64,000 nt of DNA from an uncultured Halieaceae bacterium (GTDB lineage: Bacteria > Pseudomonadota > Gammaproteobacteria > Pseudomonadales > Halieaceae). The translations under genes were made by a program, and so were the position numbers. This document shows positions 1-14,838 of the stretch, in pieces; the stretch's first letter is position 1; every line of letters starts with the position of its first letter. Location: assembly GCA_913056165.1 (NCBI GenBank), contig CAJXMD010000005.1:1-64000 (forward strand), in the 5' to 3' direction. Under the pieces are notes generated by a model. The model worked only from the letters and a program-made list of their open reading frames with translations. It searched no databases and had not been told where the DNA came from.

Positions 1-429
1 AACTGCCACTGCTTGGCCCGTTTCTCGGGACGTTTGCGCTTGATATTCAGCCTTGAGCGAAGCGTAATATGCCAAATGTTCGATATAGTGTTGACCAACC
101 TGTTTGGCCAATTCAAATCCTTTCTCGTTCTCGTCAATCTGGAAATAGGTATCCACTATCTGAAGTAGGGTGATGTCTTTCGGTGTATTACTGTTCACCG
201 TTATTTCCACACATTTATCGAGTACGGCTTTTGATCGCTCCACATCGCCTCGCTTGGCAAGGACATCAGCCAATCGGCTGAAGTTTAGTCTAAGGTTGGT
301 GACAAATCTCATATTGTTTTCATCCAAGAAAATGTCTGGATCCTCCATATTTCCGAAAGAAAACTCTTCCATCATGTTTGTGTACATGATGTCGGGCTGC
401 ACTTCACCGAAGTAACCAAATTGGTCTCA
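1..429 (-). CDS. C-terminal part of a Bacteroidetes-type DUF2723 membrane protein, partial at both ends (foreign or chimeric segment)
   Basis: Minus-strand translation from about 429 is open to position 1: DQFGYFGEVQPDIMYTNMMEEFSFGNMEDPDIFLDENNMRFVTNLRLNFSRLADVLAKRGDVERSKAVLDKCVEITVNSNTPKDITLLQIVDTYFQIDENEKGFELAKQVGQHYIEHLAYYASLKAEYQ. The DIMYxNMMxxFxxGNMEDPDxxLDENNMR pattern and TPR-like tail resemble the C-terminus of DUF2723 proteins. GC is about 44% by hand count, lower than the flank. Confidence 0.6.
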
Positions 430-1055
430 CTGGTTAGCACAAACTGGTGATCCGCGTGCTCTGCCACGAACTGTCGTCCAGTAGGTGATTGCCCGGCACA
501 GACCAGCGGCAGCTCACGTCCCGGATAGGGTGACACAGAGCAATCATCAAGCTGGAAGTAAGCACCATCGTAGGTCGATCTACCGCTCGTCCACAACTCT
601 TTAAGCACGTGAACATACTCTGCCGCATATTCGTAGCGCTTTTGATAGTGCTCATCCCCGGGCCACATGCCCATCTGCGTATACTCGGGACGATTCCAAC
701 CGGTGACTATATTCAACCCGCACCGACCACCACTGATATCATCGATGGTAGCGACCATTCTCGCCACGACCGCCGGGTGCTGACTGAGAATAGAGATAGA
801 TGGAGACAGCCCGATGGATTTGGTCTGGGCAGCGATGCCGGCCATCAGGGTAAAGGACTCGAGACAGCTGTCCCAGTAACCTGTCTCACCACCAAATCCC
901 CGAAATTTCATCATCGACAAGACAAAGTCCAGCCCATAGCGCTCGGCGGTCTGCGAAATGGCTACATTGTGCTCAAAGGTAGGCTCGTAAACCGGGCTGG
1001 CTTTCGAGGGGATGTAACCATTACTGCCGTTGGGCAGGAATACACCGAACTTCAT
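430..1055 (-). pseudogene. RutA-like flavin-dependent (luciferase-like) monooxygenase, N-terminal part only; truncated at the junction near 430
   Basis: MKFGVFLPNGSNGYIP...ISQTAERYGLDFVLSMMKFRGFGGETGYWDSCLESFTLMAGIAAQTKSIGL...DDISGGRCGLNIVTGWNRPEYTQMGMWPGDEHYQKRYEYAAEYVHVLKELW is close to pyrimidine monooxygenase RutA. Homology stops around HADHQFV and the ORF runs out at 372. Confidence 0.75.
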
Positions 1056-1060
1056 GCCTA

Positions 1061-1089
1061 GCTCCCCGTATTTGTCGGGAGCTCCCCGC
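1061..1089. repeat. Inverted repeat AGCTCCC-N10-GGGAGCT plus direct repeat AGCTCCCCG between hyuB and the RutA-like gene
   Basis: AGCTCCC at 1061-1067 and GGGAGCT at 1078-1084; AGCTCCCCG at 1061 and 1081. Confidence 0.5.
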
Positions 1090-1134
1090 TACCATCAAAA
1101 AAGCGGCAGAGCCCCTGCTATCGTTTAGCTCGGA

Positions 1135-3123
1135 TTACGCCTTGGCGCGCTTTTTTACCGCTGGCTTTGGCGCCTTCCTGGCTACAGCCTTTTTCTTCGG
1201 AGCGCTACGTTTGACCTTCACGCTACCGCCCTTGCCAGCGCCTCCTTGAAGCGCTTTGAGCGCCCAAGTTTGAAATTCGGGCTGTCGAGGCGGCTCAAGT
1301 CCCGTCTCCTTGAGGCACTGCTTTTTCAGAGTCGCAATATCGCCACCGCGGTCAAACATCGGAACCTTACCGCGCTTTTTGGCCATTTTCGCGCGCAGGG
1401 TTTGCGTGCGTTTGGCATTGACGGTGAGGTCATCATTCATGACAACGCCGTAGCGCTTTGCTCCCTCGACCGAGACCAGTCCGGCCCGAACGTCGAACTC
1501 GACGCGCTCGGTCTCACGCTTGAGGGGATCGCCACAGCCGCCACCGCCCCAGGTGTTGAAGTACAAAATGTCGCCCGATCCAACCTCAATCCGGTCACAC
1601 TTACTGGGCAGGCGCTCCTCGGAACCATCGGTGCGCACCAGGATCTTCTCAGACCGTCGACCCGGCTCCCCACCGTTCACCCCCCAGGGATAGGTCAACC
1701 AGCGGTCATCATGAATTGATATGGTGCCTGGCTCGAGGAAACAGTAGCCCATGCGAAGACCATTACCACCCCGGTTGTAACCCGCACCGCCGCTGTCGAT
1801 GATGGTCTCGTAGGTCTCGATGCGGAGTGGGAAGTAACTCTCCAGGAATTCGTTGGGTACGTTGGTAAAGCTTGGCCACAGGGAGTGACCGTCGGGGCCA
1901 TCCCCCGATGGCTTGCCGGGAATGCCGCCAAAGCCAATGGAGTAAAGTTGATACCACTCCCCGTCCTTGTCGTACCCCGAATACATAAAGTGAGGACTGT
2001 CGGAAAAACCTGCTCCCGCGAGGAAGTCGGGGTCGCCCTGACCCAGTAGGCCGCCAAGAACGTCAAAAATACGTCCAAGCGCGTGAGTCCGGCAGGAAAG
2101 CGCCGCGGGTTCTCGGGGTTTAAGAAGCGTTCCGTGAGGAATACGAACTTCCATTAAGTCATAGAAGCCGTCGTTGAACATGATCTGAGGGTCGAACACC
2201 ATGATCATGTAAACCCCGCAGAACATCTTGAACATCTCTTCATTAAGATAAAAATTGATCGAACTGATCGACTGGGGATCCGTGCCTTCAAAATCAAAGA
2301 TGACTTTGTCCTTCTCACGCCACATAGCGCATTTGATTTTGTAAGGGCCCATACCCAGCCCATCGTCACAGATATAGTCTTCGAAGTACTGCTTTTTCTC
2401 GGGTACCGTATTTTTGATGAGCTTGCTCATCGCGCGCTTGTTGCGATCAAGCAGTTCATCGAGCGCGGAGTAAAAAGTGTCGTCACCAAAACGCTCGGAC
2501 ATTTCAATTACCCGCTTCTCGGCAGTCCTAATTGCTGCAACCAACGCATTGAAATCGCTGCGGTTCCAATTGGGCATGCGGCAGTTGTGCAAGATGAGCT
2601 CTAGCAAATCGGTTTGCAGCTCATCATTTTTGTAGATCTTCGTCGGGGGTATGCGAATACCCTCTTCGAAAATCTCGCGGGCATCGGTGGGCAAGCTACC
2701 TGGCACCTTGCCACCCACATCGGTCATGTGACCAAACATGGCTGCGTAGGCAATGAGCCGCCCATCTTTGAAGATGGGCCTCAGCAGGAGCCAGTCATTG
2801 ATGTGACTGATTGCCCCGTTACAGGCGTAGGGATCGGTGGTCAGGAACAGATCGCCCTCTTCGATGGTGCCATCGTAGGCTTCCTTGAAGCCGTGAATAA
2901 AGCTACCGAACTGCCCCACGACCATCTTACCTTCGAGGTTGGCGATCATCGGGAATTCATCATGCTGCTCGCGAATACCCGGCGACATGGCTGTGCGGAA
3001 CAACACCGCATCCATCTCGTAACGGGCGTTCATCATCGCATTCTCGATGATGTCCAGGGTAATGGGATCGATGTCCTTACGCTTAAATTTCTTGGTGTTG
3101 GTTTCAACAATCGTTGCTGGCAT
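1135..3123 (-). CDS. hyuB: Hydantoinase B/oxoprolinase family protein with Lys/Ala/Pro-rich basic C-terminal tail
   Basis: 662 aa; DPITLDIIENAMMNARYEMDAVLFRTAMSPGIREQHDEF and GGGCGDPLKRE motifs typical of HyuB; adjacent to HyuA. Confidence 0.9.
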   Translation of the reverse strand: MPATIVETNTKKFKRKDIDPITLDIIENAMMNARYEMDAVLFRTAMSPGIREQHDEFPMIANLEGKMVVGQFGSFIHGFKEAYDGTIEEGDLFLTTDPYACNGAISHINDWLLLRPIFKDGRLIAYAAMFGHMTDVGGKVPGSLPTDAREIFEEGIRIPPTKIYKNDELQTDLLELILHNCRMPNWNRSDFNALVAAIRTAEKRVIEMSERFGDDTFYSALDELLDRNKRAMSKLIKNTVPEKKQYFEDYICDDGLGMGPYKIKCAMWREKDKVIFDFEGTDPQSISSINFYLNEEMFKMFCGVYMIMVFDPQIMFNDGFYDLMEVRIPHGTLLKPREPAALSCRTHALGRIFDVLGGLLGQGDPDFLAGAGFSDSPHFMYSGYDKDGEWYQLYSIGFGGIPGKPSGDGPDGHSLWPSFTNVPNEFLESYFPLRIETYETIIDSGGAGYNRGGNGLRMGYCFLEPGTISIHDDRWLTYPWGVNGGEPGRRSEKILVRTDGSEERLPSKCDRIEVGSGDILYFNTWGGGGCGDPLKRETERVEFDVRAGLVSVEGAKRYGVVMNDDLTVNAKRTQTLRAKMAKKRGKVPMFDRGGDIATLKKQCLKETGLEPPRQPEFQTWALKALQGGAGKGGSVKVKRSAPKKKAVARKAPKPAVKKRAKA

Positions 3124-3138
3124 CTTCTATCTCCCCTA

Positions 3139-5199
3139 TCACGCAGATGGTGCGATGAGTATGTTGCCGAACTGGTCGACGTTGCCGGTATGGCCAGAGA
3201 GGATCACCGACGTGGAGTCCATCTCTAGAACAATTGCCGGGCCCTCTATCTTGTTACCCGCTTTGAGTTTGTCGCGCCGATACAGCGTCGCCTGCATGTC
3301 CTTACCCTCCATGAAGACGGTGGACTTGCCTATGACCGCTGCCGCTGCGGGGGTGCGGGAACCGGACTTGGGCAAACGTCGGGCTTCGATCTCTGCGCTC
3401 TTACCCTGTGCCACTGCCCGTAGGTTCACTATCTCTTTGTCTGAATCCAGAGCAAAGGTAAACAGCTGCTTGTGCATTTCGTCAAAGGGATCCCCGATAA
3501 CTGACAGATCACCTTTCTTTAGGGCCTTCAGATCAAAATCCACAGTCAGCTGCAGGCCCTGACCCTGGTATCGGATATCCGCCTGACATGCCACGGTGCA
3601 TTCTTTGGGCGGCACTCCTTGCTTGTGCAGGGTTTTCAGCGCCTGATCCGCCAACTTGCCATAGATTTTCAAAAGCTCGTCTGTGGTGGTATCAGCAAAA
3701 CGCCGGATGAAGGTGCGAGAGGCTTCATCACGCACCCGAGTTGTGGCGTCACCGTAGGCACAGAGAACGCCTGGACCGGGAGGGATAATCACCGGCCAGC
3801 TATTCATGAGTTTGCCCAAAGCGTTGGCGTGCAGCGGGCCAGCACCACCAAAACCGATCAACGCAAAGTCTCTCGGATCATAGCCCTGCTCCACCGATAC
3901 CAAGCGTAGGGCGCCGTACATATTTTCGTTCACGATATCGATGATTCCAGCGGCCGCTCTCTTCACCGAAATACCCAGTGCCTTGGCCACGGGCTTGATC
4001 GCCTTTTCAGCCAAATCTTTGCGAATTTCCATATCGCCACCCAGCCTCACCTCGCTAGGCAGATAACCCAGCACTACATTGGCATCGGTTACCGTTGGCA
4101 ACGTACCGCCTTTGTTGTACGCAGCAGGCCCGGGCTCTGCTCCTGCGCTGTCGGGGCCAACCCTGAGCGCGCCTGTTAACTCGGGAACGTGGGCAATGGA
4201 GCCACCTCCTGCCCCAACCGTTCGGACATCCACTGACGAGGCACGAACCGTGACATCGCCGACCGTGGTTTCACGACGCAATTGCGCTTTGCCATCCTGA
4301 ACTAGTGCAACATCAGTAGAGGTACCTCCCATGTCGAAGGTGAGGAGGTTGTCGAAACCGGCCTGACGGGCCACCCACACAGCACCCGATACGCCCCCGG
4401 CAGGGCCGCTCATCAGCAGGTTTACCGGAAGGGATTCTGCGACTTTCGCCGACGCCATACCCCCATCCGATCGAAGGATATTCAGCTGCACGCCCTTGTT
4501 ACTCTTCTTGAGTTTTTTCTCAAGGTTCTTAACGTACTCCGCAACCTTGGGACGCACAAAGGAATTGGCTACGGTGGTGATGGTGCGCTCATATTCCTGC
4601 ATCTCGGGGACAACCGTCGAGGACAGGGAGATCGGAATACCCGGGAGCACTTGCTTGGCAACTCGCTCCACAGCTTTCTCATGGGCGGGGTTGGCATAAG
4701 AATTGATCAGAGAGACAGTCAGTGCCTCAATATTCTCGCCTTTTAAACGCTCGAGCTCCTTCTTAAGCGCTTTGGTATCAAGTGTTCGGACCGCTTTGCC
4801 GTCCGCTCCCATTCGCTCGTCAGCCTCGATGGTGCAGGCGAGAGGCGCCAGGGGAGCACTCTTGTTGTAAATCACCCAACCGCCCAAGCCTCCCGGCACA
4901 TAGGACCGTGCGATCTGCAAAACCTGTTTGTACCCTTTGGTGGTTACCAGCCCAACTTTGGCGCCGGACCCGGTCAGCACCGTGTTGGTGGCGACAGTCG
5001 TGCCGTGCATTACCTGGGTAATTTCCTTGGGGTCGATACCCGCATTACCACATACTCGGCTTATTCCGTTCATCACGCCGATCGAGGAATCGGAGGGTGT
5101 ACTGGGGACTTTCGCTGTGTGGATATCACCGCTGGATTCGTTTACCAAAATCAGGTCGGTGAAAGTGCCACCAACGTCCACGCCTAAACGGTAGGTCAT
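3139..5199 (-). CDS. hyuA: Hydantoinase A/5-oxoprolinase family protein
   Basis: 686 aa; MTYRLGVDVGGTFTDLIL, HGTTVATNTVLTGSGAKVGLVTTKG, FDMGGTSTDVALV, GFGGAGPLHA. Confidence 0.93.
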   Translation of the reverse strand: MTYRLGVDVGGTFTDLILVNESSGDIHTAKVPSTPSDSSIGVMNGISRVCGNAGIDPKEITQVMHGTTVATNTVLTGSGAKVGLVTTKGYKQVLQIARSYVPGGLGGWVIYNKSAPLAPLACTIEADERMGADGKAVRTLDTKALKKELERLKGENIEALTVSLINSYANPAHEKAVERVAKQVLPGIPISLSSTVVPEMQEYERTITTVANSFVRPKVAEYVKNLEKKLKKSNKGVQLNILRSDGGMASAKVAESLPVNLLMSGPAGGVSGAVWVARQAGFDNLLTFDMGGTSTDVALVQDGKAQLRRETTVGDVTVRASSVDVRTVGAGGGSIAHVPELTGALRVGPDSAGAEPGPAAYNKGGTLPTVTDANVVLGYLPSEVRLGGDMEIRKDLAEKAIKPVAKALGISVKRAAAGIIDIVNENMYGALRLVSVEQGYDPRDFALIGFGGAGPLHANALGKLMNSWPVIIPPGPGVLCAYGDATTRVRDEASRTFIRRFADTTTDELLKIYGKLADQALKTLHKQGVPPKECTVACQADIRYQGQGLQLTVDFDLKALKKGDLSVIGDPFDEMHKQLFTFALDSDKEIVNLRAVAQGKSAEIEARRLPKSGSRTPAAAAVIGKSTVFMEGKDMQATLYRRDKLKAGNKIEGPAIVLEMDSTSVILSGHTGNVDQFGNILIAPSA

Positions 5200-5307
5200 G
5201 ACTAGCCTCCTTACGCTAGGTTTTTTTAGTCACCTACATTTGGTGTCTGTAAGCCTCGTGTTGGCTACTCTGGAGAGCCTGTACCCCTCACTGGAGCGAT
5301 TAGCACA

Positions 5308-5323
5308 ATTGACCGGACATTTG
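5308..5323. promoter_or_regulatory. Weak candidate GntR operator (ATTGACCGGACATTTG) in the hyuA / CoA-transferase divergent region
   Basis: Right half GGACATTT is identical to the perfect palindrome at 13904; left half has two mismatches. Confidence 0.35.
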
Positions 5324-5417
5324 ATGCAGGATACTGTTGCCACCCGAAAGATGCACCAAAGCCGATCAACACGCAAGGCACTTTCGCGCTTCAAGCTGAA
5401 CAACTGCGGAGATTGTG

Positions 5418-6602
5418 ATGGACAAACCGTTAGCGGGAATCCGCGTACTCGCTATTGAGCAATTTGGGGCTGGACCCTATGGCTCTATGTACCTCGCTGA
5501 ACTAGGGGCTGAGGTCATCAAAATTGAAAACAGGGCAACTGGCGGCGACCCCTCACGTCAGTCTGGTGCGATAACCCTGGATGCCGATGACAGCGCTTAT
5601 TTTCAGGCCTTCAACCTGTCCAAAAAAAGCGTCACCTTGAATCTGAAGGACAGCAAAGGCAGAGAGATATTCGAAAAGCTGGTCGAAACCGCGGATGTGG
5701 TCTGGAATAACCTAAGAGGAAGCCAGCCAGCGAAACTCGGCTTAGATTACGACAGCCTGAAACAGATCAAGCCGACCATTATTTGCACTCATATTTCGGC
5801 TTATGGACGAGACAACGATCGAGCAGACTGGCCAGGATATGACTACCTGATGCAGGCAGAGTGTGGATTCCTTGGTCTAACAGGAGAGCCTGAGTCGCCA
5901 CCCTCCCGATTTGGTCTGTCCATGATTGATTTTATGACCGGCGTGGTTGCTGCGCTGGGCTGTGTGTCAGCATTGTTGGGCAGAGACCGTCAGGGAGGCC
6001 GTGATGTCGACGTCAGTTTATTCGACGTTGCCCTTCACCAGCTGACTTACCCTGGCACCTGGTATATGAATCACGGTATTGAAACAGATCGTGTCGCGCG
6101 ATCAGCACATCCTTACAACACTCCTGTGCAGCTGTTTAAAACCGCAGACGGCTGGATTTTCCTGATGTGCATGACCCAGAAGTTTTGGGAACTGCTCGCG
6201 GAGCTGATAGGACATCCCGAGTTAAAAGCCGACCCCCGGTTTCTTCTCATGAGCGATCGCGCGGCTAACCGCGCAGTTCTAACCGAGGTACTAGACGCCA
6301 TTCTCTCGACGCAAACGACTGCTCACTGGTTTGACCTACTTCAAACCAAGATTCCGGTTGCACCGGTCAACACCCTACCAGGAGCGCTGGACAACCCCTT
6401 TGTCGCCAGAAACGGCATGCGCCAAACCCTGAGCCATCGCACCGTGGGGGACTATGAGGCGCTGAGCAACCCCATCAAGCTGGACAATCACCGATTGAGC
6501 ACAAGCTGCGCCAACGGATTGGGTGCTGACAACGAGGCGATATTCGGTGAGGAGTTGTCGATCGAAGACCTGGAGGCGCTAAAGACGAGCGGCGTCATCT
6601 GA
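5418..6602 (+). CDS. CaiB/BaiF type III CoA-transferase
   Basis: MDKPLAGIRVLAIEQFGAGPYGSMYLAELGAEVIKIENRATGGDPSR; LNLKDSKGREIFEKLVETADVVWNNLRGSQPAKLGLDYDSLK. Confidence 0.93.
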   Translation: MDKPLAGIRVLAIEQFGAGPYGSMYLAELGAEVIKIENRATGGDPSRQSGAITLDADDSAYFQAFNLSKKSVTLNLKDSKGREIFEKLVETADVVWNNLRGSQPAKLGLDYDSLKQIKPTIICTHISAYGRDNDRADWPGYDYLMQAECGFLGLTGEPESPPSRFGLSMIDFMTGVVAALGCVSALLGRDRQGGRDVDVSLFDVALHQLTYPGTWYMNHGIETDRVARSAHPYNTPVQLFKTADGWIFLMCMTQKFWELLAELIGHPELKADPRFLLMSDRAANRAVLTEVLDAILSTQTTAHWFDLLQTKIPVAPVNTLPGALDNPFVARNGMRQTLSHRTVGDYEALSNPIKLDNHRLSTSCANGLGADNEAIFGEELSIEDLEALKTSGVI

Positions 6603-6627
6603 TACCTGACGATAAAATCTCCAGCCC

Positions 6628-7431
6628 TCAGTGCTGGCCAAGAAAGTCAAAGAGGATGTCGCAGAAGGCAATTTTTTCTTCCTTCCCCGCTACGACATGC
6701 GCCACTTGATCCATGGTCACGCCGACGCCCTTGGGCAAACCCTGTTCCAACGGAAGGGTTGTTCTCGGGCCAGTAATAACATCCTGCCCCGCATGGACGA
6801 CCAGTGTGGGAGCTGCGATATCGCCGAGGTGGGGGCGGATATCATGGCCGAGACAGGCCTGAATAAAGCGAAGATGGGCTGACAGGCGCCCCTCGAGATT
6901 GCCCCAGACACCATCACTACCCAAGAGCTTGTCGCGGTAAGCGTTGTAGTAATCCGGTCTGAAGGAGTAGGACGCGACCATCGACTGGAATGCCAGAAAG
7001 CCGGCGTGCTCGTGCATATCACCGAAGGCGCGAAGCTGATCTGCAAGCATAGGGTCAGCCCAAGTCCAACAGCCCATATTCACCATACACCGGACCAGAT
7101 CAGGCCGCTTGAGGGCGACCCATTGCCCAATACAGGCACCCATACCGACAAGACCAACGAAGTAAACAGACTTCATGTTGAGATGATCCAGCAACGCGGC
7201 GATGTCATCAGCAAACAGCTCGGTCGAGGGTGTCATTGAGAGATCGTCTGTTGATTCCCCTATACCTCGATAATCGATGATCACTGTTTGATAGCTGTCC
7301 GTCATACCTCGGGCAAGGTAGTGATGACGACCATGACAGAACGTGTCCCACCCCCCGATGTATATGGCAGGCGGCCCCTCCCCGTGTACCTCGTAGTACA
7401 TCTCGTGACCGTTGATTGTCGCAGTTGGCAT
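6628..7431 (-). CDS. Alpha/beta hydrolase
   Basis: 267 aa; YYEVHGEGPPAIYIGG, DYRGIGESTDD, FVGLVGMGACIGQWVALKRPDLV, APTLVVHAGQD. Confidence 0.88.
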   Translation of the reverse strand: MPTATINGHEMYYEVHGEGPPAIYIGGWDTFCHGRHHYLARGMTDSYQTVIIDYRGIGESTDDLSMTPSTELFADDIAALLDHLNMKSVYFVGLVGMGACIGQWVALKRPDLVRCMVNMGCWTWADPMLADQLRAFGDMHEHAGFLAFQSMVASYSFRPDYYNAYRDKLLGSDGVWGNLEGRLSAHLRFIQACLGHDIRPHLGDIAAPTLVVHAGQDVITGPRTTLPLEQGLPKGVGVTMDQVAHVVAGKEEKIAFCDILFDFLGQH

Positions 7432-7557
7432 AGATCTCTCCCTTTAGGAATGCATGACGCTTTTATGGCGCATCATGGGGTAATGTGATGTGGCGCTTTA
7501 AGATGATGGATGGTAACGGGAAGTAACAGCTGGCGTCTCCAGAGACTGGAATTACGC

Positions 7558-8175
7558 CTAGCGTTTGTCCAGATAGGCCAACACCTGCTCAAGGCTAGTC
7601 ACGTCCGCGTAGCGTCGCCCAACATCCCGCAAGTTGCTGTCGTGGGCCTCCATATCTTGATCACCGCAGCAATCTTCAGGAACGATAGTTCGATATCCGG
7701 CCGAGAAGCTGTCGACTATGGAAGCACGAACGCAACCTGACGTGGTACAACCCGTCATGATGGTCGTGTCGATACAGTGGGTGACAAGCCAGGGCTTCAA
7801 AGGCGTTTCATAAAAAATAGACGGCGCGGTTTTTATAAACTCGAATACGTAGTCGTCGCTAATACGTGGGTCCAGTTCCGTACAACGATGTCCATGATAG
7901 AAGCTGCCGTCATAGAGCGTGTCAATTTTCCAATAGGTCATTTCATCGGGTCCGCCCCAGGACACCCGGCACGCCGCGGCGGGTATACCCTTTTTCTTGC
8001 AGACTCCCAGCAATTTTGCCGTGTTATCAACCGCGCGCTGAATAAACGGACTTTTGCCTATTGGACTGACTCCATCGGTGAAGCCCAACTGGAAGTCCAC
8101 CATAATGAGCGCGGGCCTCTCACCAAAACCGATCTCGCGCTGGCCGTAACCTGCTTTTTCAAAATTATCCATCAC
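7558..8175 (-). CDS. Isochorismatase-family cysteine hydrolase (N-carbamoylsarcosine amidase-like)
   Basis: ALIMVDFQLGFTDG ... IMTGCTTSGCVRASIVDSFSAGYRTIVPEDCCGD: catalytic Asp and Cys present. Confidence 0.9.
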   Translation of the reverse strand: MMDNFEKAGYGQREIGFGERPALIMVDFQLGFTDGVSPIGKSPFIQRAVDNTAKLLGVCKKKGIPAAACRVSWGGPDEMTYWKIDTLYDGSFYHGHRCTELDPRISDDYVFEFIKTAPSIFYETPLKPWLVTHCIDTTIMTGCTTSGCVRASIVDSFSAGYRTIVPEDCCGDQDMEAHDSNLRDVGRRYADVTSLEQVLAYLDKR

Positions 8176-8245
8176 GTTGTCTCCACCGTTGGGCGTGCCT
8201 GCAATATGACTTAAGATGGCGGACCATTACAAGGAGTCTTGGCCA

Positions 8246-8929
8246 ATGACACAGCCCGGTTTCGTCAACAGCTTCAGCCAAACCTTTGCCCTCGATCCAG
8301 CCCGCACGGCGCTGGTCGTTATCGACATGCAAAACGCCACTGGGAATAGGCACATGGGCCTTGGCAAACTTCTGGCTGAGCGAGGAGAGGCGGACAGCGC
8401 GCGCTACCGGTTTGATCGCATCGAGCAGGTGCTGGTGCCCAATATTCAACGACTCCTCGCCCACTTCAGGTCGACTGGAGGCAAGGTGATTTTTATCACC
8501 TACGGCGCAAACGCACCCGATGCTAGTGATGCGCCGCCACACATGGCACCCATCATCAAGGCGACTAACAACATCGCGGGGCAGCCAGAGCACGAAATCG
8601 TTGAAGGCCTGCGACCAAACTCAGGTGAAATCGTCCTCAACAAAACAACCCAGGGCGCTTTCCGCAGTACCGCGCTCGACAGCACATTGCGCGCACTCGG
8701 TGTTGATACGGTGATTACCGTTGGCGTATCTACAAACAACTGCGTCGCGATGACCTCTATGGAGGCCTGCGATTTGCAATACCGGGTGGTGGTGGTCGCT
8801 GATGGTACCGGCACCGACAGCGATCAAATGCAGGAGGCTACGCTGACAATGCTAAAGCGGCTTTGGGCCCGGGTGCTAACCACAGATGAGGTGCTCGCTG
8901 AGTTGACCCCTTCCAACACGACATCCTGA
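8246..8929 (+). CDS. Isochorismatase-family cysteine hydrolase (RutB/biuret-hydrolase-like)
   Basis: TALVVIDMQNATGN ... VNKTTQGAFRSTALD (ORF reads VLNKTTQGAFRSTALD); VITVGVSTNNCVAMTSMEACDLQYRVVVVADGTG. Start from MTQPGF with upstream AAGGAG. Confidence 0.88.
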   Translation: MTQPGFVNSFSQTFALDPARTALVVIDMQNATGNRHMGLGKLLAERGEADSARYRFDRIEQVLVPNIQRLLAHFRSTGGKVIFITYGANAPDASDAPPHMAPIIKATNNIAGQPEHEIVEGLRPNSGEIVLNKTTQGAFRSTALDSTLRALGVDTVITVGVSTNNCVAMTSMEACDLQYRVVVVADGTGTDSDQMQEATLTMLKRLWARVLTTDEVLAELTPSNTTS

Positions 8930-8931
8930 GG

Positions 8932-9876
8932 ATGAGACAACTGCCTGCCGGGGGCGTGCTCGGGACCTTACTTGTAGCCACGGGTGCCATATTTCTCGCA
9001 TCAAAAGGCCTCTTCGCCAAAAGCCTCTACGCGCAAGGATTGAATCACAACGACGTCGCGGCCATCCGCTCAGTGTTGGCGATCCCCGGCTTCTGGATAG
9101 TGGCGCTGGTACTTCATGGCCGGCCCCGCTCCTCGACCCGATCCAACAGCCAAATCCATACCCACGGCGTTATTCGCTCTCCGACACTGTCTGACGTAAT
9201 CGGCGCTATGTTTGCCGGGATACTGTGCTACTACTTTGGTGCTCTGGCTAACTTTTATGCGTTGTCGCTGATTCAGGCAAACGTGGAGAGAGCCCTGCTA
9301 TTTTCCTATCCGGCACTGGTAATCGTGTTCAATGCACTCTGGACCTGGGAGCGCCCTGCATCAGCCACCCTGTTGAGCGTTGCACTGACAAGTTTTGGGG
9401 TGCTACTGGTGACTGGCGCAGCAGATCAGTCCCTGACCCAACAACAGCTCATTGGTGTGGGATGGGTGCTGTTTTGCTCTATTACCATCGCTGTCTACTT
9501 TATGATGAGTGCTCCCCTGACTCAACGGCTTGGATCAGGTAACTTCACCGCGATAGCCATGACAGCCGCCGGCTTCGCTTTTTTCCTCCACTACCAGTTG
9601 CAGGGCCCCACCCGCTGGTTTTCCATGCCCCCTGACGCTTTGATACTGATGTTAGGGTTGGTGTTGTTCGCCACTATCTTACCTCTAGTATGCGTCGCCG
9701 AGGGAGTGAGACGCATTGGAGCCTCTCGTGCTGCCGTCATCAGTACCCTGGGGCCACCCGCTACTGCCGCCATGGCCTTTTACTTCCTCGGCGAGAGGCT
9801 GTCCTACACCCAACTTTTCGGCATGCTCATCGTCGTGGCCAGTATTACCTTTCTCGAGCTTAGTCAGCGGCGTTAG
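8932..9876 (+). CDS. EamA/DMT-family transporter
   Basis: 314 aa, about 10 hydrophobic segments; internal duplication typical of EamA; C-terminal PPATAAMAFYFLGERLSYTQLFGMLIV. Confidence 0.9.
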   Translation: MRQLPAGGVLGTLLVATGAIFLASKGLFAKSLYAQGLNHNDVAAIRSVLAIPGFWIVALVLHGRPRSSTRSNSQIHTHGVIRSPTLSDVIGAMFAGILCYYFGALANFYALSLIQANVERALLFSYPALVIVFNALWTWERPASATLLSVALTSFGVLLVTGAADQSLTQQQLIGVGWVLFCSITIAVYFMMSAPLTQRLGSGNFTAIAMTAAGFAFFLHYQLQGPTRWFSMPPDALILMLGLVLFATILPLVCVAEGVRRIGASRAAVISTLGPPATAAMAFYFLGERLSYTQLFGMLIVVASITFLELSQRR

Positions 9877-9913
9877 CGCGCAATATCGCCCCTAAGTTGG
9901 CGATTACCGCAAA

Positions 9914-9923
9914 TGTCCGTACA
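9914..9923. promoter_or_regulatory. Candidate GntR operator AAATGTCCGTACAATT upstream of the TauD-like gene
   Basis: TGTCCGTACA core, shared with 15672 and one mismatch from the perfect palindrome at 13904. Confidence 0.55.
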
Positions 9924-9954
9924 ATTGACACATGAAGCAAAAGAGGCTGGATTC

Positions 9955-10800
9955 ATGTTTGACGTTAGACCCCTGAGCGGCAGCTTTGGTGCCGAGGTGA
10001 TTGGCTTCACTATCGGTGAGAACAACACCGCCGAGCAGGTAGAGGCTGTCAAAGCCTTATGGGCAAAGCACAAAATATTGCTGTTTCGCGAACAGAGCAT
10101 GGACGAGAAAGTACTCGTCGACTTCAGTCGCCAGTTTGGTGAGCTCGAAATTCACGTACGAACCGAGTACCTATCCCCGCACCATCCGGAGGTCCTCTAC
10201 ATTTCCAACATAAAGGATGGGGATCGCAAGATTGGCATTCTTGCCGACACCGAAGTGGGCTGGCACTACGATCAGATATACCTCCCCCGCCCCGCTGTGG
10301 GCTCCCTTCTTTGTGCCGATATCCTGCCGCCTACCGGCGGCAATACGGAGTTTGCTGACATGGCTGCGGCGTACCAGTCTCTGCCCGAAGGGACCCGAGA
10401 GCGACTGAAGGGATGTCGTGCCATTCAGTCCTATGAGGCATTCAATAGGGCATACAGCGTACCGACCAATGACGCGCAGAAGAAGCGCTCACCTGACATC
10501 GAGCATCCTCTCGTGCGACGCCACCCTATCACCGGGAAGGATGCCCTTTATCTTTGCCCGGGAATGACCACAGAGATCGTCGGCTGGAACGCCACAGAAA
10601 GTAGTGAAATGCTCGAAGAGCTGTTTGAATGGTGCGTCAAACCCGAGTTCGTTTACTCGCACCAGTGGCAGGCTGGCGACGCTATCTTGTGGGACAACGC
10701 CTGCACCATGCATCGTCGAGACCCCTTCGATCAGAATTACCAGCGATTGATGAAGCGGACGACGATACTACCCGCGGCGCACCTCGCGGTCCCTGTGTAA
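9955..10800 (+). CDS. TauD/TfdA-family Fe(II)/2-oxoglutarate-dependent dioxygenase
   Basis: FDVRPLSGSFGAEVIGF, GWHYDQIYLPRPAVGSLLCADILPPTGGNTEFADM (HxD), ILWDNACTMHRRDPFD (distal His). The ORF ATG at 9913 lies in the putative operator, so 9955 is the preferred start. Confidence 0.9.
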   Translation: MFDVRPLSGSFGAEVIGFTIGENNTAEQVEAVKALWAKHKILLFREQSMDEKVLVDFSRQFGELEIHVRTEYLSPHHPEVLYISNIKDGDRKIGILADTEVGWHYDQIYLPRPAVGSLLCADILPPTGGNTEFADMAAAYQSLPEGTRERLKGCRAIQSYEAFNRAYSVPTNDAQKKRSPDIEHPLVRRHPITGKDALYLCPGMTTEIVGWNATESSEMLEELFEWCVKPEFVYSHQWQAGDAILWDNACTMHRRDPFDQNYQRLMKRTTILPAAHLAVPV

Positions 10801-10865
10801 CCTCTGATCTTAGAGGGAGAGTGAGGCTCTGAGAGGTCGCTGAGCGCGACCCCCGGAGCTTGTAT

Positions 10866-12416
10866 TTAAGCCTTATCCTCAGGTGGCGTGCAACCCGTCG
10901 CACAGCACTGCCCCGGCTGCTTCTGGCGCGCTGGAGATCCACTTTCCCCAAGATCAGCGACGCCGCGGTCAAGCAACCTCTCGACCAAGGCCCGCCGCTC
11001 CTCGATGGGGTAGCGCCGGTAGATCTCTCTCTTCATCGCCTGCGGCGAGCCACCGCCGTGAAGGCTGATGATGGAATACCAACCCCCTGTCGAAGACGCC
11101 GTCAGATCGCCGATGAATCTGGAAACCTCCATACGCTGCTCGTAGGGGATATCGGCTCTGCCGCCCAGCACGGAGGCAAGATCCCCCGCCGTCTCTGGGT
11201 TGTGATCCTCATCCGGACCCGGTAGCGCCACCACCAGGCCTCCCGACACCTCGTGGGCAGCCCGGTGCATGTCGTATATCTGGGTGGCGAGAAGCAGTTT
11301 TCCCACGTTGGAGAAAACCGGCTCGGGCATGTACGAACCCGCGGGATCCTGAACGCCATAAACCGACGAGGCGACACCACAGGCGTAGAAGCCTTCGACG
11401 ATCTTGATTAAATCAACCATACTCTCCCGCAAATGGGGCACATCTTCTGCATCGAGCCCATTCGCTTCTGTCATCAGTGCGCCCGCACCAATCAACAAAT
11501 CACCAAACCCGGCTCTTGCACCAATACAACTCTGCCGATGGTGATTGGCATAGGAGGTGACCAGATGCTCGGTATGCTCCCATTCTCCAGCCATAAAGAC
11601 TCTTTCCCAAGGCACAAACACATCGTGGAATTGGCAAACCGCCGTACTCTGACCGTATTTGGCGCTGAACTTAGCCTCCTCTTCTCCGGGCCGGCCCGCC
11701 ACTTTGGAGATAATGGTCAGTCCCGGCGCATCCAGCGGCACGGCGCAGCACACAGCAAAGTCAGCATCAGAAGCCGTCATGGTCCGACAAGGCATAACCA
11801 ACAGCTCGTGCATGTAGGGCCCTCCCGTCACAATCGCCTTGGTTCCGCGAATGACAATGCCGTCGCTTCGACGCTCCTTGACGTGCACATAGGCATCAGG
11901 GTTGGTCTGTTTGTGGGGGCGAAGGCTGCGATCTCCCTTGGCATCGGTCATGGCGACACCCAGGGTCAAATCTGCCTTTTGAATCGCGTGTAAATACGTG
12001 AGAAACCGGTCGTGGTATTCGAGGGCCCCGTCCGCGTCAGTCATGCGCCAGGTGGATTGGTAAATTGCGTTCAAGGCATCGTGGGTCAAATAGCGCTGGG
12101 CACAACCACTCTCACGACACAGCAGACGCACCGCCTCGAGTTTACTGAGTAGGTCCTCGGTGTGACGATTGATATGCAGCATGCGATTGACTGTATGTCC
12201 CGAGGTGGACTGCTCAGCAAGCATCAAGCCACCGTACTCAGGCCGCTGAGCGAAGTCATAGGTAACACCCACTGCGCGAATACCGGGCGCGAGTCGAGGG
12301 TCATCCGCCACCGATTCGACACGGCCTCCATCGATAAATACGGTCGGCTGATACTGCCTGAGACTCTCTTTGTACTCCTCGGCGGTCATGATTTTGCCGC
12401 CGGCCTTCATCAACAT
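10866..12416 (-). CDS. 4-hydroxyphenylacetate 3-hydroxylase (HpaB)-family flavin monooxygenase
   Basis: 516 aa; MTAEEYKESLRQYQPTVFIDGGRVESV; DAYVHVKERRSDGIVIRGTKAIVTGGPYMHE; PWERVFMAGEWEH. Confidence 0.9.
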   Translation of the reverse strand: MLMKAGGKIMTAEEYKESLRQYQPTVFIDGGRVESVADDPRLAPGIRAVGVTYDFAQRPEYGGLMLAEQSTSGHTVNRMLHINRHTEDLLSKLEAVRLLCRESGCAQRYLTHDALNAIYQSTWRMTDADGALEYHDRFLTYLHAIQKADLTLGVAMTDAKGDRSLRPHKQTNPDAYVHVKERRSDGIVIRGTKAIVTGGPYMHELLVMPCRTMTASDADFAVCCAVPLDAPGLTIISKVAGRPGEEEAKFSAKYGQSTAVCQFHDVFVPWERVFMAGEWEHTEHLVTSYANHHRQSCIGARAGFGDLLIGAGALMTEANGLDAEDVPHLRESMVDLIKIVEGFYACGVASSVYGVQDPAGSYMPEPVFSNVGKLLLATQIYDMHRAAHEVSGGLVVALPGPDEDHNPETAGDLASVLGGRADIPYEQRMEVSRFIGDLTASSTGGWYSIISLHGGGSPQAMKREIYRRYPIEERRALVERLLDRGVADLGESGSPARQKQPGQCCATGCTPPEDKA

Positions 12417-12465
12417 GGCTTACTCTCCACCTGTTTGTTTTTTGTTTCTTCGGTCATGGGATTTG

Positions 12466-13884
12466 TCACGACAATCCTCTCAGGGCGTTCAAAAATTCAC
12501 CGCAATCGGGTTGGGCATCCAAATTCCAGATGGTATGCCAGAGTGCTTCAGCGCGCTCCTCGGGTAAGACGAGGCTGCAGTTTTGCAGAAACTTCTGCTT
12601 CACTTGCTCTTCCTCCAATAAACGACCCGCGGCGCCGCGATTCACCTCTTCAAATTTGCAGAGTGTTTCTCCCGTCTTGAGCGTAATCTCAACCCCACCC
12701 GAAAAAGCCTGAGGATAGCGGGACCTCGGATCATGCCGGCAAGTGATTTTTTCAGCCAGCGCAAGTGTGACGGAGTCGCTGCGATGATCCTGATCTAGCT
12801 CTTGCAAACCAAATCGCCCCTTTGTCAGCGCCGTTGCCACCGCATAGGGAGCACTGAACTTTGCGTCGTATTCGCTTTCGGGCTTTCGCTTGCGCTCAAT
12901 GGGATCCACAACGACACCGAACTGGCGCTCATCCAGCTTGATGACCACATGATCGATATCTTCTACGTCGAAACCACCCTGCTGGCGCAACGTCAGCGCT
13001 GCATCGATGGGTGCATGGTTGAAGTGGCAGACCGGATAGGGCTTTATCGCCACCTCGTCCAGCGCCCAGGGCTGACTGTCAGGCCGCCAGTTCAGTCCCT
13101 CCGCCCGACTGGCATCACGGGTAAACAGCGAATAAAAACCGAAGCGACCGCCATAGGCATCTTGGGGCGCCTGAAATCCGGATACGGCCAGCCGGGCAGC
13201 AGTGAGCGCAGACGAAGCCGCCCAGCCGGGATGCAGTCGCTTCGTCCAGGCACCTTCATCCAGAAACGCCATGCTGCCGCCAGCCATGCTCAGGGCGATT
13301 CCCTGTGCATTAACAGCATCGAACTGGGAGCCGCCCAGCAGGCGCACAGCCGCTACGGTTGCGCCGAAGATGCCTACCACACCCGTCGGGTGAAAACCCA
13401 GCTCCTGAAATACACCGCCGGCAGCGGCACCCAGCCGACCGTCAATTTCCAGCGCCACGAGGACAGCCATTAACAGCTCGGTGCCGCTTACCTCGGCGCG
13501 ATGAGACAGGGCAAGCGCTGTGGGCAAGGCGCTTGCCGAACAGTGAACAACCGACGGCAGATGAGTGTCATCGTAATCAAGACCATGGACTAAAACCCCG
13601 TTGATTAACGCCGCATCTCGCTGGGGGTAGAGCCTTTCACAGCCTATGGCGACGGCAGCGCCGGCCTCATCAAACGCCTCAATCGCCTTGCGAGTGCGAT
13701 CAGAAAAATTATAGTGGTGTGAGGCGTAGGCAATGCCGATGGCATCCGCTACGCAACATTTAAGGTATTGCCATACCCGCTCGGGAACCTGCGAATGTGA
13801 TACTCCCAAGCCGACACGAGCAAAGCAGGCCGCAGGACTCTCTGCCTTGTCTTCCCACTCTTTCCGACTCTCAACCGCCGCCAC
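12466..13884 (-). CDS. MmgE/PrpD family protein
   Basis: 472 aa; LINGVLVHGLDYDDTH (HGLDYDD motif), LPTALALSHRAEVSGTELLMAVLVALEIDGRLG. Confidence 0.9.
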   Translation of the reverse strand: MAAVESRKEWEDKAESPAACFARVGLGVSHSQVPERVWQYLKCCVADAIGIAYASHHYNFSDRTRKAIEAFDEAGAAVAIGCERLYPQRDAALINGVLVHGLDYDDTHLPSVVHCSASALPTALALSHRAEVSGTELLMAVLVALEIDGRLGAAAGGVFQELGFHPTGVVGIFGATVAAVRLLGGSQFDAVNAQGIALSMAGGSMAFLDEGAWTKRLHPGWAASSALTAARLAVSGFQAPQDAYGGRFGFYSLFTRDASRAEGLNWRPDSQPWALDEVAIKPYPVCHFNHAPIDAALTLRQQGGFDVEDIDHVVIKLDERQFGVVVDPIERKRKPESEYDAKFSAPYAVATALTKGRFGLQELDQDHRSDSVTLALAEKITCRHDPRSRYPQAFSGGVEITLKTGETLCKFEEVNRGAAGRLLEEEQVKQKFLQNCSLVLPEERAEALWHTIWNLDAQPDCGEFLNALRGLS

Positions 13885-13903
13885 AATCCAATGTCCCTAC
13901 CGA

Positions 13904-13921
13904 AAAATGTCCGGACATTTT
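13904..13921. promoter_or_regulatory. Perfect 18-bp palindrome AAAATGTCCGGACATTTT, probable GntR operator upstream of MmgE/PrpD
   Basis: Exactly self-complementary; about 20 bp upstream of the 13884 start codon (minus strand); core shared with sites at 9914 and 15672. Confidence 0.7.
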
Positions 13922-13947
13922 AGCGAAGCGGAACGCAGATAGCGAAC

Positions 13948-14838
13948 CTATTGCTTGGCCTCTAGCAAATCAGCCAGGGCCAGAATGCGCTGACTCTTAT
14001 AAACAATAGGATAATCAATGAAATAGCCGTCCAACTGAATCGAAGCTGACCCCTGGCTCTCTGCCTCCTCAAATGCCGCCACCACAGCTCGAGCGTGCGC
14101 TATCTCATCTGTCGATGGGGTAAACACCTGGTTGGTCAAGGGAACCTGATTTGGATGAATGCACAACTTGCCGCCGAAACCATACTTCCGACCCCGCTCG
14201 GCAGAGGCAATGAAACGCTCGTTATCGTTGATCTGCAACACCACCGTATCCACCGGGGGTAGCAGATCGCCAAGCCGGGATGCATGAGACAAGCGTGCCC
14301 GAGCATACTGAAGCACCTCCTCGTCAGCCGACCAGAGATAATCGAGGTCAAGGGTATAGTCCCCGCCACCAAAAGCGAGCCGCTTAACCCGACTACCGGC
14401 AGTCGCGATAGCCGCAGCGTTCTCTACTCCCGCCGCCGTCTCGATGATAGGAAGAAGGTCGAGGCTGCCCGTTGTTATGCCGGCGGCACTTTCCACCTCT
14501 TTGACCCACTGATCTACCTGTCTGAGCACCTCGGGTGATTCAACTTTTGGCAGGACGATACCATCCAGCCACGCTCCTACCGTTTGTTTAATATCTTCCT
14601 GACAGTATTGGGTGTCCGCACCGTTCACCCTGACGTAGTGTAGAGCACGTCCGTCCGCCGCCTTGAAGGCCTCAACAACCTTGCTCCGGGTCATCTCCTT
14701 CTCGGCGATCGCAACCGCATCTTCTAAATCAAGAATGACGGCATCCGCACCCAGCTCGAATACTTTCTCGACACGTCGAGGGTGATTCGCCGGCGCAAAC
14801 ATAAAACTCCGCGTGGCAGCCAACACTCGGTCACTCAT
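13948..14838 (-). CDS. CitE-like CoA ester lyase (HpcH/HpaI family; citramalyl-CoA lyase-like)
   Basis: 296 aa; RSFMFAPANHPRRVEKVFELGADAVILDLEDAVAIAEK; LPKVESPEV; IIETAAGVENA; FGGGDYTLDL; CIHPNQV. Confidence 0.92.
   Translation of the reverse strand: MSDRVLAATRSFMFAPANHPRRVEKVFELGADAVILDLEDAVAIAEKEMTRSKVVEAFKAADGRALHYVRVNGADTQYCQEDIKQTVGAWLDGIVLPKVESPEVLRQVDQWVKEVESAAGITTGSLDLLPIIETAAGVENAAAIATAGSRVKRLAFGGGDYTLDLDYLWSADEEVLQYARARLSHASRLGDLLPPVDTVVLQINDNERFIASAERGRKYGFGGKLCIHPNQVPLTNQVFTPSTDEIAHARAVVAAFEEAESQGSASIQLDGYFIDYPIVYKSQRILALADLLEAKQ

Follow-up and report, generated by a model that had tools for sequence, protein, structure and literature searches.

The question raised by this locus is why a minus-strand gene that reads clearly as a monooxygenase breaks off within its own coding sequence and gives way, towards the edge of the DNA, to a second reading frame belonging to a different gene. 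The window, that is, the whole 64,000-nt stretch that was analysed, corresponds to positions 1-64000 of the plus strand of contig C5, and its base 1 is the contig end. Contig ends are a usual site of assembly debris. The contig is part of a host draft genome of 2.43 Mb in 114 contigs, listed as 86.7% complete with a contamination of 0.08. Our answer, to which we assign a probability of about 0.96, is that bases 1 to ~425 are an artefactual chimera, made by an assembler or library route, in which a Flavobacteriales (Salibacteraceae) tail has been placed on the host contig. The features concerned are the following:

1-401, minus strand: foreign tail, reading open up to the end of the contig, that corresponds to the C-terminal portion of a PF11028 (DUF2723/TMEM260-like) gene of Flavobacteriales and is recognised by its match to the Salibacteraceae locus L022
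402-425, minus strand: overlap zone of at most 24 bp that fits both genes, with exact L022 identity and residue agreement in the RutA-like frame
402-1055, minus strand: truncated RutA-like luciferase-family (LLM) flavin monooxygenase, first ~218 of ~350 codons (PF00296, RutA model, three congeners)
1135-3123, minus strand: hydantoinase B/oxoprolinase-type gene (PF02538, E 7e-143), collinear with the congener loci

The host side of the joint is a recognisable gene fragment. As proposed in the initial annotation, the minus strand from 1055 is RutA-like: the open reading frame (ORF) matches Bac_luciferase (PF00296, E 7e-46) with 157.4 bits, above the gathering score of 27.9, and its best NCBIfam model is RutA (TIGR03612), with 311.7 bits over positions 1-215 of the 355 of the profile. 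The same gene is intact in three congeners, where it encodes ~350 amino acids and is 81-83% identical over residues 1-218/219. The complete congener proteins align over residues 1-350 to positions 1-349 of this profile; they differ from RutA in that they score only 374-382 bits (381.7 and 373.8) against an equivalog cut-off of 498.3 bits, which the truncated window fragment does not reach either, and in having a hydantoinase B gene as neighbour. "RutA-like" is therefore the right wording. In two of the three congeners the alignment runs on into this hydantoinase B gene (window 402-2541 versus L005 and 403-2543 versus L003), and these alignments mark the hydantoinase B-type gene as truly adjacent to the RutA-like gene in the host. 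The missing C-terminus of the RutA-like protein has no close match in the host genome (best 35%), which is unsurprising for an incomplete draft.

The RutA-like gene belongs to a larger group of catabolic genes (402-14838), which also includes hydantoinase A and B types, a CoA-transferase III, an alpha/beta hydrolase (weakly PcaD/RutD-like), two isochorismatase-fold hydrolases, one of them weakly biuret-hydrolase/RutB-like, a TauD-type dioxygenase, and HpaB-type, MmgE/PrpD and citrate-lyase-beta-like genes. All of these score below equivalog cut-offs, and the group could encode a pathway for a cyclic amide or imide. At its end the hydantoinase B-type ORF (1135-3123) carries a basic tail rich in lysine and alanine (KVKRSAPKKKAVARKAPKPAVKKRAKA).

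The other side of the joint has a different origin. Window bases 1-428 are identical at 426 of 428 nucleotides (99.5%) to L022, a locus on contig JALRDM010000131.1 of the metagenome-assembled genome (MAG) of Salibacteraceae bacterium isolate JJ.5; this match ends abruptly, and no nucleotide match to L022 was found beyond window base 428. The minus-strand frame that runs from 402 to the window edge encodes 134 amino acids that are 99% identical to L022 and match, in a species-level genome collection, ten loci at 59-99% amino acid identity, all from MAGs labelled as Flavobacteriales or Salibacteraceae. In L022 the gene is an intact ORF of 1098 amino acids, with PF11028 at residues 35-212 (E 1e-75; 253.8 bits against a gathering score of 24.2). 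The tail had been described as the C-terminus of a DUF2723 protein, and this description holds by way of the full-length gene only: the 134-residue fragment alone gives no significant DUF2723/PF11028 match in a profile search. PF11028, formerly DUF2723 and now named TMEM260-like protein O-mannosyl-transferase in Pfam, is an N-terminal domain of the gene of which the tail is the C-terminal portion; the tail itself lies ~700 residues downstream of the domain, and the label applies to it because the full-length relative L022 carries that domain. Compared separately, as had been recommended, the two translations thus lead to different organisms, the left one to Salibacteraceae L022 and the right one to the full-length gene of three congeners.

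Composition agrees with this division. GC content is 44.1% in 1-401, 54.4% in 429-1055 and 54.9% in the whole window, compared with 42.1% in L022, and 1-401 is lower in GC than every one of 632 background segments of 401 bp taken from the rest of the window (mean 55.0%, sd 2.7). This bears out the lower GC reported relative to the adjacent region; the earlier value of about 44% for bases 1-420 is also correct (44.0%), although the count behind it is 185 of 420 and not 186. The trinucleotide log-odds per base of 1-401 is -0.017, on the donor side, whereas the background, scored in-sample, has a mean of +0.045 and a minimum of -0.007. By both measures, GC and trinucleotide composition, bases 1-401 resemble the donor and fall outside the range of the host background.

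The joint itself can be narrowed to a few codons. The RutA-like reading was said to collapse after HADHQFV, but it follows its relatives codon by codon through LTSETNLVTSVK (versus LTSEDNLVTSVK in the relatives) to residue 218, at base 402; the point of departure is residue 219, where the window has C and the relatives D, and the last nine residues (CSPTSCTQT) of the ORF called at 372-1055 are spurious. From the opposite side, identity to the donor L022 is exact over 380-425, with a mismatch at 426 and only scattered matches above it. Since the donor match is exact up to 425 and agreement with the RutA-like relatives extends to 402, bases 402-425 (ACCAATTTGGTTACTTCGGTGAAG) are compatible with both genes; the RutA-like frame translates them as TNLVTSVK, the PF11028 frame as (N)QFGYFGEV. 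Seven of the eight residues of TNLVTSVK are identical to those of L003 and L004; agreement of this kind by chance is very unlikely, and most of the word at 402-425 is therefore probably common to both genomes. Fewer than 24 bp may be shared, as a synonymous host difference would hide under the donor sequence. On these alignments the misjoin is placed within or at the edge of 402-425. The second frame does run to the window edge as initially described, but the junction is not at 429-430: foreign sequence extends to at least 425 and the boundary is the overlap zone. The 24-mer at 402-425 occurs once in the window, there are no repeats of note at the joint, and, in line with the initial annotation, no mobile element is seen there.

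Such a short word, if indeed present in both genomes, would be a sufficient cause for a misjoin. In a simple uniform-base calculation, a pair of such genomes would share by chance ~2.3 words at k = 21 and 0.04 at k = 24, so a community with hundreds of species would be expected to contain many of them. Donor and host presumably co-occurred in one sample. In the proposed sequence of events, the two genomes would share by chance an exact word of at most 24 bp at 402-425, a small-k de Bruijn graph assembler or a local end extension would cross there from the host to the donor genome, and extension would halt ~400 bp past the crossing, leaving the join inside the RutA-like gene. The counterpoint is that most assemblers finish with a k larger than 24, and the crossing would have to arise in an early small-k round, in local extension or in the library. 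Interspecies chimeras are a rare but recognised error of MAG assembly, typically lacking paired-read support (PMC7111523). The window resembles them in that two organisms are found in one contig, bases 1-428 leading to Salibacteraceae L022 and 402 onward to congeners L003-L005, with composition and phylogenetic profile changing abruptly between them; it differs in that the foreign part comprises only ~400-425 bp and is terminal.

The two sources, the breakpoint zone, the position at the contig end and the absence from congeners are direct observations; attributing the join to the assembler rather than to the library is our inference, and we consider the assembler route the probable one. In the library version of the artefact, a host strand would have been primed on donor DNA at the shared word during PCR or whole-genome amplification, and the product then sequenced and assembled. 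This would leave the same junction anatomy, and template switching would be expected to show microhomology at such a joint, but a single chimeric molecule needs enough depth to enter a contig. Of the two routes it is the less likely. A cloning chimera, also mentioned originally, is less likely than an assembly or library one in a metagenome-style draft. The preference for an artefact over lateral transfer stands, since each half has its intact counterpart in a different organism.

A real and very recent lateral transfer or recombination, bringing the Flavobacteriales fragment into the host RutA-like gene by microhomology at the word of at most 24 bp, would account for a contig that crosses the joint without Ns and for the existence of a nearly identical donor. 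It is nevertheless highly improbable, because both genes are broken and mutually out of frame, no mobile element or notable repeat accompanies the joint, and the piece occupies the very end of the contig, while a search of the host genome for the rest of the 9-kb donor locus found nothing. PF11028 was not detected in the host genome (a Bacteroides control was detected), and bases 1-402 are present in none of the 56 other genomes of the host genus. Relatives with the same DUF2723-fragment/RutA arrangement, which had been named as evidence that would speak against a chimera, were found on neither side: 0 of 56 congeners have 1-402, and the ten Flavobacteriales loci are collinear without it. As both sequences come from metagenome drafts, the misassembled or contaminated contig might instead be that of L022, a reading that we regard as having a negligible chance. 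The L022 gene is full length and collinear over practically all of it with nine other Flavobacteriales loci (73-83% amino acid identity), and this collinearity across the breakpoint rules out L022 as the chimera; moreover, a search made without a positive control found no RutA-like relative in the genome of L022.

In all, the consequences of the chimeric contig concern data quality only. The contig should be trimmed of its first ~425 bases, the annotation of the ORF at 372-1055 should describe a RutA-like gene that is truncated to residues 1-218, and neither a PF11028 gene nor a transfer event should be credited to the host. As a chimera formed at a short word that fits both genes, the locus is a clean case, its edge piece of ~400 bp being small enough to escape genome-level contamination estimates; the foreign tail is an ordinary artefact and not biology.
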